From Actinomycetota bacterium (GTDB taxonomy: Bacteria; Actinomycetota; Actinomycetes; JACCUZ01), in contig JAVEDI010000118.1 of the NCBI GenBank assembly GCA_030841035.1, positions 1 through 64,000 of the forward strand: DNA of 64,000 bases. Direction: 5' to 3'. Position numbers and translations under genes: made by a program. Below, piece by piece: positions 12,142 through 19,269 of this stretch. Position 1 is the stretch's first letter; each line of letters begins with the position of its first letter. Under the pieces are notes generated by a model that was given only the letters and a program-made list of their open reading frames with translations, searched no databases and had not been told where the DNA came from.

Positions 12142-13167
12142 GTGGAAAGCGCGGGCGACGGCGGCGCGGCGCACGGCGCGCCTCCCGTCGGGGCATCCGC
12201 CCGTAGGCCCATCAACCTGGTGTCTCCGCTCCCCGGGCCGGGCGGCTCGGACAGCGCTCGCACCGTGGCGGTGGCGTTCGTGGCCAACGTGCTGGTGGCC
12301 GTGGCGAAAACCATCGCCGCCGTGCTCACCGCATCGGCATCGATGGTCGCCGAGTCGGCACACTCCTGGGCCGATGCGGGCAACCAGGTCTTCCTTGTCA
12401 TCGCCAACCGAAGGTCGCAACGCAGACCTGACCCGACCCACCCCCTGGGCTACGGCCGGGACGCCTACGTCTGGTCGCTGTTCGCCGCGCTCGGCTTGTT
12501 CGCGGCCGGCGCCGCCGTCTCGGTGACCCACGGCCTGCAACAGCTCCTGCGCCCCGAGCCGGCGAGCGACTTCGTCGTCGGGTACGTCGTGCTGGGCTTG
12601 TCGTTCCTCCTGGAGGGCATCTCGTTGCGCCAGTCGGTCCGGCAGGCCAAGCCCGAGGCCGAATCGCTGGACCGCGATCTCCTCGAGCACGTCCTTGCCA
12701 CGTCGGACCCCACACTCCGCGCGGTGGTGGCCGAGGACACCGCCGCGGTGATCGGTCTTGTCATCGCCGGCGCCGGCCTGGCAGCCCACCAGCTGACCGG
12801 TTCCTCCGTCCCGGACGCCGTCGGGTCGATCCTGATCGGTTTGCTGCTCGCGGTGACCGCTGTCGTGCTGATCAACCGCAACCGGCAGTTCCTGATCGGC
12901 CAGGAGGTGGATCCCCGCGTCCGCGCGGCCACGATCCGGGCGCTGCTGCGCATGCCGGAGGTCGAGCGCGTGACGTATCTCTACCTCGAGTTCGTCGGGC
13001 CCAGGATGATCAGCGTCGTCGGCGACGTGGACCTGACCGGCGACGACACCGAGTCGCACCTGGCGGTCCGGCTCCGGGCCGTCGAGGCGCAGATCAGTGC
13101 GTCACCAGCCGTCGCGCGGGCGGTGCTGAGCCTCTCCGCCCCCGACGAGCCGACACTCGAAGTCTGA
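12142..13167 (+). CDS. Cation diffusion facilitator family transporter
   Basis: A 341-residue membrane protein of the CDF family (metal-cation/proton antiport). Helix 2 carries ESAHSWADAGNQ, with the His and Asp of the HxxxD site. Helix 5 carries AEDTAAVIG in place of the second HxxxD. That Glu-Asp form is seen in the ZnT9-like branch, so classical zinc export is less certain. The C-terminal cytoplasmic domain (about 255-341) is present. The N-terminus has a 35-residue Gly/Pro-rich extension. GTG 12142 is divergent from the truncated lipid operon. No metal regulator is adjacent. Confidence 0.85.
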   Translation: MESAGDGGAAHGAPPVGASARRPINLVSPLPGPGGSDSARTVAVAFVANVLVAVAKTIAAVLTASASMVAESAHSWADAGNQVFLVIANRRSQRRPDPTHPLGYGRDAYVWSLFAALGLFAAGAAVSVTHGLQQLLRPEPASDFVVGYVVLGLSFLLEGISLRQSVRQAKPEAESLDRDLLEHVLATSDPTLRAVVAEDTAAVIGLVIAGAGLAAHQLTGSSVPDAVGSILIGLLLAVTAVVLINRNRQFLIGQEVDPRVRAATIRALLRMPEVERVTYLYLEFVGPRMISVVGDVDLTGDDTESHLAVRLRAVEAQISASPAVARAVLSLSAPDEPTLEV

Positions 13168-13243: not shown

Positions 13244-14755
13244 ATGACGAGCCAGGTCCAGGCCCTGCGCGCCGCCGACGGCGCCACGCTGGACCTCGCC
13301 TCGGTCGCGGCCACGCTGGCCGACCAGTTCACCGTGGTCACCCGACCGAGTCAGCTGATCCGCCGCGTCCGCCTCGACACGTTCGATCGAAGGCTGCACG
13401 CCGCGGAACTGACGCTGGAGCACCAGGTCGCGGGCTCGCAGGAGCGGCTCGTGCTCGACGGGCCGGCGTGCTCGTCGACCGTGACCGTGCCGGCGACGGA
13501 GCCACGCTGGCCTGTCCTCGCCGCAGGTCTTCCGGATGGTCCGATCCGCACCGCGCTTGCTCCCGTGATCGGCATCCGCGCCTTGCTGGTGGTCTCCGAC
13601 GAGAAGCGCCGCGTACGGCGGTTGGAGCTGCACAACGAGGACGACAAGACAGTGGCGCGGGTCCAGCTGGACGAGCCAGCCACCGCCACCGCCGCGCCGC
13701 CGCAGCTCACGGTGCTCGCCTTGCGCGGTTACGAGGACCTGGCCGGGCGAGCGCTGCGTCTCCTGACCCGGGCCGGACTGCGGCAGGTCGACCACCGGGA
13801 AGCGCACGCGGCGGACGTCCAGCCGACGGCCGGCATCGTTGCCACCTCGCCGGCCATCGAGCTGCTGGCCGCGCAGCTGGGCGAGTTCCTGGCCGCGATG
13901 CGGGACAACCTTCCCGGCCTGCTCGACGACGTGGACACCGAGTTCCTGCACGACTTCCGGGTAGCGGTCCGCCGGACCCGTTCGACGCTCAAGCTCGGAC
14001 GGCTAGCCCTGCCCGAGGTGATGCACCGCCGGTGGGAGCCGGCGTTCAAATGGTTGGGTGACCTCACGACACCGGTCCGGGACCTGGACATCTACGAGCT
14101 GGACCTGCCCGTGATGACGACGTGGCTGGTGGCGGCTGAGGCAACGGACCTCGACGAGCTGGCGCAGCACCTACGACGCAGGCGATCGTCGGCGCGCCGG
14201 GCGATGGTGCAGGGTTTGAGGTCGGCCAGGTTCCGGCGGCTGATGGCCGGCTGGCACGACACGCTGACCCGGCTCGCCGAGGGGAGCCAGGACCTGACGG
14301 GAGAGCAGCTGTCCGCCGGCGTGCTGGCGCAGCGCAGCATCCGGCGGGCCTACCGGCGGGTCGCGCGCGACGGTGCCGCGATCTCGCCGGAGTCGCCGGC
14401 CGAGCACCTGCACGAGCTGCGGAAGCGGTGCAAGGAGCTTCGCTATGCGCTCGAGGTGTTTGCCCCCGTCATCGAGAACGGTCCACGCAAGCGGGCGGTC
14501 GCCGACCTCAAGAGCTTGCAGGACGTCCTGGGCCGGTTCCAGGACTGCGAGGTGCAACGGCTGGCTCTGCGCGACTTCGCCGAGGAGATGATGGCCGACG
14601 GGACACCCGCGTCGGCCGTGCTTGCGATGGGTGAGCTGATCGGACACCTCGACGTCGAGCAGGACCGCGCCCGTGAGCGGTTCGACGGCGCGTTCGCCGG
14701 CTTCACCCGGCCCTCCGGCCGGCAGCGGATGCAACGGCTGGGGGGCGGACGGTGA
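13244..14755 (+). CDS. CHAD domain protein with N-terminal CYTH-like region
   Basis: A protein of about 503 residues. The C-terminal half (about residues 205-490) is a CHAD domain: helical, His/Arg/Lys-rich, with FLHDFRVAVRRTRSTLKL and HLHELRKRCKELRYALEVF, the conserved basic motifs that bind inorganic polyphosphate. The N-terminal 200 residues resemble a diverged CYTH fold, with a central EKRRVRRLELHNEDD segment. ATG 13244 is preferred; GTG 13232 is also possible. The stop overlaps the ParA start (GTGA), so the two are translationally coupled. CHAD proteins localise to polyphosphate granules in the few cases studied. No polyphosphate kinase gene is in the window. Confidence 0.87.
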   Translation: MTSQVQALRAADGATLDLASVAATLADQFTVVTRPSQLIRRVRLDTFDRRLHAAELTLEHQVAGSQERLVLDGPACSSTVTVPATEPRWPVLAAGLPDGPIRTALAPVIGIRALLVVSDEKRRVRRLELHNEDDKTVARVQLDEPATATAAPPQLTVLALRGYEDLAGRALRLLTRAGLRQVDHREAHAADVQPTAGIVATSPAIELLAAQLGEFLAAMRDNLPGLLDDVDTEFLHDFRVAVRRTRSTLKLGRLALPEVMHRRWEPAFKWLGDLTTPVRDLDIYELDLPVMTTWLVAAEATDLDELAQHLRRRRSSARRAMVQGLRSARFRRLMAGWHDTLTRLAEGSQDLTGEQLSAGVLAQRSIRRAYRRVARDGAAISPESPAEHLHELRKRCKELRYALEVFAPVIENGPRKRAVADLKSLQDVLGRFQDCEVQRLALRDFAEEMMADGTPASAVLAMGELIGHLDVEQDRARERFDGAFAGFTRPSGRQRMQRLGGGR

Positions 14756-15489
14756 AGGTCCTCGCGACGTACAACATCAAGGGCGGGGTCGGGAAGACGT
14801 CGACGGCCGTGAACCTCGCCTACCTGGCCGCGCGGGAGGGTCGGCGGACGCTGTTGTGGGACCTCGATCCGCAGGCCGCCGCTACGTTCCTGTTCCGGGT
14901 GCGACCGCGGGTCAAGGGCGGGGGCCGTGCTCTGGTAAACCGACGGCGTCCGATCGAGGCCGCCCTGAAGGCCACCGACTTCGAGAACCTCGCGCTGCTG
15001 CCGGCCGACTTCAGCTACCGCAACATGGACCTCGAGCTGGACGACACCAAGAAGCGAACCCGGCGGCTGGGCCAGCTGCTGGACAGCGTCAGCGGCGAGT
15101 ACGACATCGTGTTCCTGGACTGTCCGCCCAGTGTCTCGCTGGTCTCCGAGAACGTCGTCGCGGCCTCCGACATCCTGCTGGTGCCGCTGATCCCCGCGAC
15201 TCTGTCGATGCGCGCCTTCGAGCAGCTGACGCGGTTCGTGTCCGAGGTGGAGGGACGACGCCCCGAGGTCGTTGCCTTCTTCTCCATGGCCGATCGCCGC
15301 AAGCGGATGCACCGGGACGTGATCGAGGCGATGCGGAGCAACGGCTCCTGCGTGGCCGACACCATCGTGCCGGCCCTGTCGGTCATCGAGCAGATGGCGC
15401 AGCACCGGGCTCCCGTCCCCGCGTTCGCCCCGACCAGCCGTGCGGCTCGCTGCTATGAGCAGCTGTGGGCAGAGGTGCGCCCGACGTGA
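14752..15489 (+). CDS. Orphan ParA-type ATPase
   Basis: A 245-residue P-loop ATPase. It has the deviant Walker A motif with signature lysine (KGGVGKTS, residues 10-17), Walker A-prime (LLWDLDPQAA) and Walker B (IVFLDCPPS). ParA proteins form ATP-dependent dimers on the nucleoid and move cargo such as plasmids, chromosome origins, carboxysomes or PHB granules. There is no ParB or parS-like sequence next to it. It overlaps the CHAD gene upstream and the NUDIX gene downstream by 4 bp each, so the cargo may be what CHAD binds, namely polyphosphate. That role is inference. Confidence 0.9.
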   Translation: MKVLATYNIKGGVGKTSTAVNLAYLAAREGRRTLLWDLDPQAAATFLFRVRPRVKGGGRALVNRRRPIEAALKATDFENLALLPADFSYRNMDLELDDTKKRTRRLGQLLDSVSGEYDIVFLDCPPSVSLVSENVVAASDILLVPLIPATLSMRAFEQLTRFVSEVEGRRPEVVAFFSMADRRKRMHRDVIEAMRSNGSCVADTIVPALSVIEQMAQHRAPVPAFAPTSRAARCYEQLWAEVRPT

Positions 15490-16385
15490 GTCGGCCCACG
15501 ATCCTGGCCGCCGGCGGAGTCCTGTGGCGTGGCAGCGCGACGGATCCGGAGGTGGCGCTGGTACACCGCCCGCGCTACGACGACGAGTCGTTGCCGAAGG
15601 GCAAGGCCAAGCCAGGAGAGCACCTGCTCGTCACCGCTGTCCGGGAGATGACCGAGGAGACGGGCTACGCCCCGCGGATCGGTCCGTACCTGGGCACGGT
15701 CCGCTACCGGGTGTCGTCCCGCGGTGGTTCCGCGAACAAGGCCGTGAGCTATTGGTCGATGCGGTGTCTCGGTGGGGAGTTCCGGGCCAGCCGCGAGGTG
15801 GACCGGATGGACTGGGTGTCGCTGCACGCGGCTCGCAGCCGGGTCACGTCTGCTTCCGACCGTGCCGTGCTCGATGCGTTCGCGCAGACCAGACGCGACA
15901 CCGAGCCGCTGCTGCTGGTGCGCCACGGTGAGACGACGTCGCCCGCGCGACGCCTCAAGTCCAGCTCCGCGTCGCAGCGGCTCAACCGGTCAGGTCGCGA
16001 CCAGGCCGCCGCGCTGGTCCCGGTCCTCGAGGGGCTGGGGGTCACCGATCTGATCAGCGCCGACCTGCCGTCCTGCGTCGACATGCTTGCCCCCTTCGCC
16101 GCTGCTACCGGCCTCACCGTGCGACGTGAAGGGCTGCTGACCCGTGCCGGCTTCGCCGGCAACGAGCAGGAGGTCGCCGACGGCGTCCGGCGGCAGGCTG
16201 CGATCAGCGAGGCGCTCGTCGTGTGCGGGGAGCAGCCGGTCATCACCGGGCTCCTCACCGCGTTGGGTCGTGGCTCACAGACGCCACCGCCCCGCGAGAC
16301 CGCCGTGAGCAAGGGTGGCTGGTGGTTGCTGCACCACTACGAGGGGGCCATCACCGCGTACGAGAGGCATGACCCAGCGGCATAG
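15486..16385 (+). CDS. NUDIX hydrolase fused to histidine phosphatase (MutT1-like)
   Basis: A 299-residue two-domain enzyme. Residues 1 to about 140 form a NUDIX domain with a perfect Nudix box: GKAKPGE, then REMTEETGY. Residues from about 145 form a histidine phosphatase domain with the LVRHGE catalytic motif and a second His near the end. This arrangement matches mycobacterial MutT1, which hydrolyses 8-oxo-GTP and diadenosine polyphosphates. GTG 15486 overlaps the ParA stop by 4 bp. A mutT1 gene beside CHAD fits a polyphosphate or nucleotide-polyphosphate link. Confidence 0.88.
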   Translation: MSRPTILAAGGVLWRGSATDPEVALVHRPRYDDESLPKGKAKPGEHLLVTAVREMTEETGYAPRIGPYLGTVRYRVSSRGGSANKAVSYWSMRCLGGEFRASREVDRMDWVSLHAARSRVTSASDRAVLDAFAQTRRDTEPLLLVRHGETTSPARRLKSSSASQRLNRSGRDQAAALVPVLEGLGVTDLISADLPSCVDMLAPFAAATGLTVRREGLLTRAGFAGNEQEVADGVRRQAAISEALVVCGEQPVITGLLTALGRGSQTPPPRETAVSKGGWWLLHHYEGAITAYERHDPAA

Positions 16386-17569: not shown

Positions 17570-19207
17570 CTAGTCCAACGGCGGTAACGTCTGGTCAGCG
17601 ATCAGCGCACCTGAGAACGGGTCGCCACGCGCCGCGACCCGCTCCAGCACAGTGCGGACGGTGAAACCGTCCGGCCGCAGCGTCGTGTCGTCCAGCTCGT
17701 CCCAGTCGATCGGCGCCGACACGGGCGCACGCGGCGCCGCGCGCGGGCTGTAGGGCGCCACCAGCGTCTTGTTGATGGCGTTCTGCGTGTAGTCCAACCG
17801 CGCGAGTCCGCCGCGCTCGTGCTTGCCCCACTTCCAGCTGACCAGCTCGGGCACCACCTTGCCGACCGCCTTCGACAGCTGCTCCACCCATGCCCGCGTG
17901 TCGGAGAAGGTGGGCCCACGGCTGATGGGCACCCAGACCTGGATGCCGCGCTGCCCGGTGACCTTGGGGTAGCCCCGCACGCCGAGGTGACGTAGCGCGT
18001 CGCGGTGCAGCCGCGCGAGCAGCACGACGTCCGCCCATGTCGTGGACGGACCCGGGTCCAGGTCGAGGAGGGCGTACGTCGGCAGGTGCGGCTCGTCGGT
18101 GAGCGACGTCCAGGCGTGCCACTCGAGGGCACCGAAGTTCGCCACCCACACCAGCGACGCCGGCTCGTCGACCACCAGGTACGTGCTCGTCTCGCCGGGG
18201 TCCGCCTCTGGGTTGTCCCACCGGGTGATCCACTCCGGGGCGTGCTTCGGCAGCTGCTTGTGCCAGAAGCCCTTCTCGCCCGCGCCGTTGGGGTAACGGT
18301 GCATGTTCAGGGCCCGGCCGGCGAGGTACGGCACGGCGGTGGGGGCCACCTGCGCGGCGTACCGGATGAACTCGCGTTTGGTGATCGCCGCCTCACCGGC
18401 CGGGCCGGGGAACAGCTGCTTGTCCAGGTTCGTCAGCCGCAGGCGGCGGCCGAAGACGTCCCATGTGCCCGAGTCACCCAGTGCGTCGAGCGCCAGCAGC
18501 TCGTCCTCGCCGGGACCGGCCAGCGCTCTCGGCCGCAGCGCGACGGAGGCCTCGCCGGCGGGCAGGTCTGATCGCCACAGCCGGTCCGGGTCCGCCTTGA
18601 CCTGATCATTCGTGCGCCCGGACAGCACGGAGAGCGGGTGGTCCTCGGGGTCCCAACCCTGCACGGCGTACTCGTCGTGCTTGTGCAGCAGCACCCACTC
18701 GTCCTTGCCGTCACGGTCTGCCGAGCGTCCGCGGCGGACCAGCACGAGCCGACCGTGCAGCTTCTGCCCGTGGACCTCGGCGTGCAGCTCGCCGGCGGCC
18801 ACCGCGGCGAACGGGTCGCCGGTGCCGTGCGGCTCCCACGTGCCGGCGTCCCACACGATGACGTCGCCGCCGCCGTACTCGCCGGCCGGGATGACGCCCT
18901 CGAAGTCGATGTAGTCGATGGGGTGGTCCTCGACGTGGACCGCCATCCGTCGCACCGTCGGGTCCAGCGTCGGACCTTTCGGGACCGCCCAGCTGACCAG
19001 CACACCATCGATCTCGAAGCGCAGGTCGTAGTGCAACCGGCTCGCCCGGTGCCGCTGCACCACGAACCGAGCGGCACCGGGCTCGCCACGTCGCGCGGCC
19101 TCGCCGGCCGGTTCCGGGGTCCGCTCGAACTCGCGTTTCTCGCGATAGCGCGCCAGCCGCTCACCCGTCGTCGCTCGGGCAGGCCGCTGGCCGTCGCGTG
19201 CGGGCAT
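17570..19207 (-). CDS. LigD-like protein: 3'-phosphoesterase plus primase-polymerase, no ligase domain
   Basis: A 545-residue protein. Residues of about 40-200 form the LigD 3'-phosphoesterase domain (FVVQRHRASRLHYDLRFE, then AVPKGP). Residues of about 255-535 form the LigD polymerase domain of the archaeo-eukaryotic primase type, with LLDLDPG carrying the catalytic Asp pair and SGRTNDQVK-like linker sequence before it. The ATP-dependent ligase domain is absent. ATG 19207 is chosen because GGTGGGAG lies 5 bp upstream. These domains process and fill ends in bacterial Ku-dependent end joining, usually with a Ku and a ligase encoded elsewhere; neither is in this window. Confidence 0.88.
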   Translation of the reverse strand: MPARDGQRPARATTGERLARYREKREFERTPEPAGEAARRGEPGAARFVVQRHRASRLHYDLRFEIDGVLVSWAVPKGPTLDPTVRRMAVHVEDHPIDYIDFEGVIPAGEYGGGDVIVWDAGTWEPHGTGDPFAAVAAGELHAEVHGQKLHGRLVLVRRGRSADRDGKDEWVLLHKHDEYAVQGWDPEDHPLSVLSGRTNDQVKADPDRLWRSDLPAGEASVALRPRALAGPGEDELLALDALGDSGTWDVFGRRLRLTNLDKQLFPGPAGEAAITKREFIRYAAQVAPTAVPYLAGRALNMHRYPNGAGEKGFWHKQLPKHAPEWITRWDNPEADPGETSTYLVVDEPASLVWVANFGALEWHAWTSLTDEPHLPTYALLDLDPGPSTTWADVVLLARLHRDALRHLGVRGYPKVTGQRGIQVWVPISRGPTFSDTRAWVEQLSKAVGKVVPELVSWKWGKHERGGLARLDYTQNAINKTLVAPYSPRAAPRAPVSAPIDWDELDDTTLRPDGFTVRTVLERVAARGDPFSGALIADQTLPPLD

Positions 19208-19269
19208 GCTCCCACCCCCGGATGCCACCGGTCGGTCGTCAGCCCCGCCGGTCCGGTGATCGCGCTCGG

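Follow-up and report, generated by a model that had tools for sequence, protein, structure and literature searches.

A CHAD-linked branch of ParA ATPases as a possible positioning system for polyphosphate granules

Which cargo could be served by a ParA-type ATPase whose gene overlaps a CHAD gene and has no ParB gene beside it? The question is raised by a three-gene operon in the first 64,000 nucleotides of contig JAVEDI010000118.1 of an Actinomycetota bacterium (assembly GCA_030841035.1); this whole stretch is called the window below. A sequence-only reading had proposed that the ATPase positions polyphosphate granules and that the CHAD protein is the adaptor to the polymer. As a whole, this interpretation was partly supported. 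The explanation that we favor, at a probability of roughly 0.6, is that a ParA-type system with CHAD as adaptor is dedicated to the positioning of polyphosphate granules. The operon contains the following features.

13244..14755, + strand: CHAD protein, 503 amino acids (aa), with an N-terminal degenerate CYTH/triphosphate-tunnel-like domain and a C-terminal CHAD domain; proposed polyphosphate adaptor
14752..14755, + strand: GTGA, overlap of the CHAD stop and the ParA start
14752..15489, + strand: ParA-type ATPase of the CHAD-linked branch, 245 aa, isoelectric point (pI) 9.6
15486..16385, + strand: MutT1-like NUDIX and histidine phosphatase-like protein, 299 aa; accessory

The three genes and their 4-base overlaps were confirmed. 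The CHAD reading frame runs from ATG (13244) to TGA (14755), that of ParA from GTG (14752) to TGA (15489), and that of the NUDIX protein from GTG (15486) to TAG (16385); both junctions read GTGA. Because the cation-efflux gene on the 5' side stops at 13167 and the metallophosphoesterase gene on the 3' side lies on the opposite strand, the operon consists of exactly these three genes. A sigma-70 promoter scan gave no match, and the one terminator-like match, within parA, was at about chance level. The first protein matches the CHAD family (PF05235) over residues 210-443 with 177 bits (curated cut-off, 25.6), and the second matches AAA_31/ParA with 129 bits and contains KGGVGKT, so that both assignments hold. 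The operon indeed lacks ParB, and the sole ParB_N match of the genome is on another contig (C91). The third protein had been read as a MutT1-type NUDIX plus a histidine phosphatase. Both domains were recovered (NUDIX, 53 bits; His_Phos_1, 37 bits), but the MutT1 label was not: the score to NF052459 was 212.7, below the equivalog cut-off of 475, and the protein is therefore named MutT1-like.

How far does this gene order extend? A first search among 60 relatives yielded 6 orthologues with at least 46% identity, and generic ParAs mostly reached at most 34% over their full length. When 84,980 species genomes were scanned, 80 loci were obtained. Ranked by identity to the window ParA, 86 loci were divided into the branch (at least 40%; 52 loci) and controls (below 40%; 34 loci). 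CHAD lies directly upstream of ParA in 41 of the 52 branch loci, and ParB was found in none of them; the Soj-type control loci have ParB in 28 of 34 cases and CHAD in none. The overlap between the CHAD stop and the ParA start measures 4 bases at 31 of the 41 paired loci and 1 base at another 4. With the 4-base overlap recurring in this way, the arrangement goes far beyond what chance would give. The order is conserved well beyond close relatives. The 37 CHAD-linked loci of the species-genome scan represent at least seven phyla, namely, Pseudomonadota (Alpha, Beta, Gamma, and Mariprofundia), Actinomycetota, Chlorobiota, Thermodesulfobacteriota, Myxococcota, Planctomycetota, and Dormiibacterota, although many source genomes are metagenome-assembled genomes (MAGs) and single assignments may be off. 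The predicted conservation of a CHAD-ParA-mutT1 order stood for the first two genes and failed for the third: a MutT1-like gene follows ParA in 3 of the 52 loci, all from same-family relatives. The NUDIX gene was rejected as part of a conserved operon core. The core unit is the CHAD-ParA pair, to which the NUDIX gene has been added locally.

In a Gammaproteobacteria sample, branch ParA was present in 49 of 321 genomes. CHAD adjoins ParA at 27 of the best 30 gammaproteobacterial loci, and a 28th (L190) has a shorter CHAD protein detected via Pfam. An Alphaproteobacteria sample contained branch ParA in 4 of 240 genomes, and the CHAD-ParA pair is present at each of the 12 Chlorobiaceae loci retrieved. 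CHAD is encoded somewhere in 40 of the 42 genomes that have a member or near-member ParA, the other two being the MAG of L037, an assembly of 1.5 Mb, and the genome of the outlier L078. This locus, together with L081 and L201 (34-38% identity to the queries, no adjacent CHAD), was excluded from membership. At the threshold used, branch ParA was found in 11 of 72,556 plasmid records. Two Paracoccus plasmids (L226 and L227) carry CHAD-ParA-CYTH-NUDIX operons, in which the NUDIX gene is a separate one of their own; phoU and phoB are near the operon in L227. On the Marinobacter nauticus plasmid pMAQU02 (L230, 4164-12309), roughly 7 kb separate a ParA of 35% identity from a short CHAD gene, with phbB and a pyruvate kinase gene in between, a layout that possibly links to another storage polymer.

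A patchy distribution would fit horizontal transfer of a small cassette, and two phosphate-related genes might co-travel without any joint function. However, one order and mostly one 4-base overlap are kept across at least seven phyla, the CHAD proteins belong to a specific subfamily (see below), and CHAD is in the genome even when it is not adjacent. We consider such a neutral neighborhood very improbable.

Is the ATPase simply a chromosomal ParA that lost its partner? In the ParA tree, the CHAD-linked branch is split from ParB-linked Soj ATPases (SH-aLRT, 100), and no parS-like site, that is, no match to TGTTTCACGTGAAACA at up to 3 mismatches, was found within the 64-kb window. Grouping with ParB-linked chromosomal ParA, close to a parS site, was the outcome that the sequence-only reading had held against its own proposal; the opposite was found. 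Regarding the placement of the branch, its separation from ParB-linked Soj thus stood, and the branch is closer to Soj than to McdA. The profile match was 119 bits to 8ray versus 47 bits to McdA (6noo; the tree holds no McdA rows), and the AlphaFold2 model (pLDDT, the predicted local distance difference test, 93.9) shows a ParA fold with the Soj/ParA structures 9a6n, 8ray, and 2bek as top Foldseek matches, McdA being weaker. The carboxysome-positioning system McdA-McdB is nevertheless comparable in that a ParA-type ATPase acts with a non-ParB adaptor on a non-DNA cargo (here, a proposed one), and its fold is similar (6nop; E value, 5e-16). The window branch differs from it by its closeness to Soj-type ParA, its CHAD partner, and its polyphosphate-gene neighbors.

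Two segments of the window ParA were noted when the alignment columns of 53 branch and 54 control sequences were compared.

15190..15216, + strand: ParA residues 147-155, IPATLSMRA (branch consensus, IPTTLSLRT), in place of QCEYYALEG of ParB-linked Soj
15295..15315, + strand: ParA residues 182-188, basic stretch RRKRMHR

The Walker residues K10, K15, D37, D39, and D123 are invariant in a 28-sequence alignment, and the deviant Walker A motif KGGVGKT is present together with Walker A' and B. Soj/ParA of the ParA-ParB-parS system is the closest relative in fold and sequence, and KGGVGKT, D37, D39, Q41, and D123 are invariant and common to both. In contrast to Soj, the branch has no ParB or parS, segment 147-155 is replaced, and the protein is basic instead of acidic. 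Residues specific to the branch are R49, R90, R154, K184, H187, E213, M215, and R219. Within the RRKRMHR stretch, R183 is common to Soj, and K184 (81% of the branch) and H187 (96%) are branch-specific; we infer a role of this stretch in nucleoid binding. Segment 147-155 is a candidate for partner specificity. In MinD the equivalent helix region binds partners, and the same may apply to the segment in this ParA.

The Soj-like fold and the few plasmid copies could mean that the ATPase still partitions DNA, segregating a chromosome region or a replicon whose centromere would be bound, unusually, by CHAD. Against this stand the loci without ParB and the window without a parS-like site. Moreover, in the work of Lorenzo-Orts et al. 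(PMC6537752), SsCHAD and RcCHAD showed no significant binding of single-stranded DNA or RNA. We give DNA partition hardly any credence.

Branch ParAs have a mean pI of 9.2 and a mean net charge of +8, whereas the corresponding values of the controls are 5.6 and -6; within actinobacteria, the pI ranges are 8.6-10.0 and 4.6-5.4, respectively. To judge from composition, such a charge would suit nucleoid binding and, equally, direct polyphosphate binding. The latter is the main rival explanation: ParA would bind polyphosphate itself, the polymer would be a competitor of DNA or would itself form the matrix, and CHAD and ParA would nucleate, size, or dissolve granules without transport along the nucleoid. 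However, strong DNA binding explains the same charge, and the Soj-like Walker motifs and fold are intact. We regard direct binding as unlikely, yet as an alternative to be taken seriously.

Could the CHAD protein connect the ATPase to polyphosphate? Two parts of the protein bear on this.

13244..13789, + strand: N-terminal beta-rich domain, approximately residues 1-182, triphosphate tunnel (TTM)/CYTH-like without ExExK, from the secondary structure of the model
13949..14446, + strand: span with the polyphosphate-contact residues H236, R239, R243, R279, R400, and Y401, from alignments

The AlphaFold2 model (pLDDT, 91) has 6qva, the CHAD domain of Chlorobium tepidum (CtCHAD) with polyphosphate, as its top Foldseek match, and the N-terminal 180 residues match TTM folds. 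The catalytic ExExK motif is absent from this N-terminal domain, which is CYTH/TTM-like in fold only; ExExK was detected in 1 of 84 ParA-linked versus 13 of 26 unlinked CHAD proteins. According to Lorenzo-Orts et al. (PMC6537752), CHAD is judged free of enzymatic activity and binds polyphosphate in the solved cases. For CtCHAD, they give the structure of the polyphosphate complex, affinities of 1.9 µM and 147 nM, and the contacts H253, R256, R260, R296, R418, and Y419, which are also the residues mutated there. The six counterparts in the window protein, listed above in the same order, do not vary in alignments of 25 and of 31 ParA-linked CHADs. From these residues and the CtCHAD literature, the window protein is predicted to grip polyphosphate, although it is a distant homologue with 25% identity overall.

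CtCHAD itself belongs to a CHAD-ParA pair. The CHAD proteins upstream of ParA in Chlorobiaceae match PDB entries 3e0s, 6qv7, and 6qva, all of CtCHAD. The PDB sequence was found with 100% identity on a 2.15-Mb contig of C. tepidum (genome G108), where the next gene encodes branch ParA. At this locus (L156, 5199-10737), PPK1, a 273-aa gene without Pfam match, CtCHAD, and ParA stand in line; the 273-aa gene ahead of CHAD also occurs in L056, L059, and L062. Because CtCHAD, which was crystallized with polyphosphate, is ParA-linked, the idea of CHAD as adaptor is strengthened. The paper on CtCHAD, in its available sections, treats the isolated domain without mention of ParA. A second characterized protein is encoded on the other side of the ATPase: in Nitrosomonas europaea (L074, 10001-11199), the gene directly after ParA is 100% identical to NE1496 (PDB 2fbl and 3typ). 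By its PDB title (inorganic triphosphatase NE1496) and the description in PMC3440374, this is NeuTTM, an inorganic triphosphatase (tripolyphosphatase) (PMC3440374). NeuTTM is a stand-alone CYTH enzyme, which the window operon does not contain.

In a tree of 92 CHAD domains, 20 of the 26 unlinked CHADs fell into one clade with 100% support and a single linked member. These 20 are mostly from the class of the window and include a second CHAD of the source genome, whereas the window CHAD groups with ParA-linked CHADs of other actinobacteria. Three of the 26 are doubtful as unlinked proteins: L079 and L207 end near a contig end, and L131 is from a genome with ParA elsewhere. ParA-linked CHADs thus form a mostly separate subfamily, which is what a dedicated adaptor would look like and is not proof of contact.

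The neighbors of the pair suggest yet another role. Across branch loci they include SixA, PPK1, PPK2, PPX, and PhoU-like/Pit genes, and in the acidobacterium Mor1, where CHAD is not next to ParA, it is beside SixA and close to PPX and PPK1. ParA might therefore regulate polyphosphate enzymes or place them, for example, at a pole or division site, much as MinD/BcsQ-like ATPases place other machines, and have no part in granule spacing. The operons with PPK1, PPK2, CYTH, SixA, NUDIX, or PhoU-like/Pit genes are in line with this, and so are two genomes that pair ParA with PhoU-like/Pit instead of CHAD. In these actinobacteria (G019, L009 1459-2328; G058, L010 1456-2262), the gene of the branch ParA forms a row with those of a PhoU-like DUF47 protein and a Pit-type phosphate transporter, and CHAD is not adjacent. 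However, the constant partner is CHAD, the polyphosphate binder judged nonenzymatic in PMC6537752, and the enzymes vary. Enzyme localization is an improbable explanation in our view.

The explanation that we favor, granule positioning with CHAD as adaptor, would work as follows. The CHAD domain would grip polyphosphate and so coat the granule, and ATP-bound ParA dimers would bind the nucleoid nonspecifically. In the role of ParB or McdB, CHAD would bind ParA and stimulate ATP hydrolysis and release. Granules would then follow the ParA gradient and would be spaced and shared between daughter cells. Production, trimming, or management of the cargo would fall to the enzymes encoded alongside (PPK1/PPK2, CYTH tripolyphosphatase, SixA, or NUDIX proteins). 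A conserved neighborhood has served before to assign ParA cargo: for ATPases of H. neapolitanus, the cargoes were then confirmed genetically (PMC10241942).

Several points weigh against granule positioning. What has been observed is genomic or was published on the biochemistry of two proteins encoded in such operons, whereas we infer that CHAD touches ParA, that ParA binds the nucleoid, that its ATPase is stimulated, and that granules move. The branch is patchy, with 11 of 247 genomes in the class of the window versus 163 of 247 for CHAD, so that most CHAD-bearing actinobacteria manage without branch ParA. In the 11 loci of this class, CHAD is adjacent in 7 and not adjacent in 4, and one of these genomes (G230) has no CHAD match. 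Co-occurrence at the genome level in this class was discarded as evidence, since CHAD is common (10 of 11 branch genomes versus 163 of 247 overall). On the supporting side, the distances of CHAD and ParA correlate with r = 0.78 after removal of duplicate loci (largest of 1000 permutations, 0.18), but this was computed without species-tree control. Finally, AlgP spaces granules in Pseudomonas aeruginosa (PMC9239181), and ParA is thus not generally required for granule spacing. AlgP resembles the proposed system in spacing polyphosphate granules along the nucleoid; it is a histone-like protein, not an ATPase.

In a 2025 review (PMC13052382), AlgP is the single positioning protein given for polyphosphate granules; no ParA is named, and the need for ATP is marked as unknown. 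The sequence-only reading knew of no described ParA system for these granules. As to the gene pairing, this did not hold: in Acidithiobacillus, the same pair occurs in a folD-ppk-parA-CHAD neighborhood, which was reported in 2019 and 2024 (PMC6416229 and PMC10892726). In their available sections, these papers discuss it in connection with cAMP synthesis or copper resistance and offer no positioning hypothesis. As to the positioning proposal, the statement stood: no polyphosphate ParA was found proposed in the open-licence literature, which excludes subscription papers and preprints, and priority elsewhere is possible.

The remaining gene of the operon and the source genome also relate to polyphosphate. 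In the three same-family relatives, ParA is followed by the NUDIX gene and then by a CYTH gene. The window operon has no CYTH gene, and a related CYTH-CHAD gene is on contig C8 (approximately 45-49% identity to the CYTH part of the relatives over 190-210 residues). The histidine phosphatase half (15909-16385) reads RHG in the window and RNG, RNA, and RSG in the three relatives; because the phosphatase histidine is lost in these, this half may be noncatalytic. Elsewhere in the source genome, contig C31 (L157, 3087-7981) carries PPK1, CHAD, and a MutT1-like gene in line without ParA, and the window operon therefore looks like a second CHAD-MutT1 cassette that carries ParA. With this row and three PPK2 matches, the genome is equipped for polyphosphate. 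Downstream in the window, a LigD-type protein (17570-19228, - strand) has 3'-phosphoesterase and primase-polymerase domains and no ligase domain detected by Pfam.

Many bacteria store polyphosphate in granules. We see a somewhat better than even chance that these ParAs are a widespread and so far undescribed branch that has its own dedicated CHAD adaptor and uses ATP to position and partition the granules actively. This would be the first motor-like machinery for the storage organelle, and its basic ParA might exchange between DNA and polyphosphate. The gene pair can be named in N. europaea and C. tepidum, and one partner was crystallized with polyphosphate, which makes the question directly testable. 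If the proposal is true, a storage polymer would join the cargoes of ParA ATPases, and a cellular role would be assigned to a branch whose members carry, at best, the label of a generic AAA family ATPase or of a chromosome partitioning protein.

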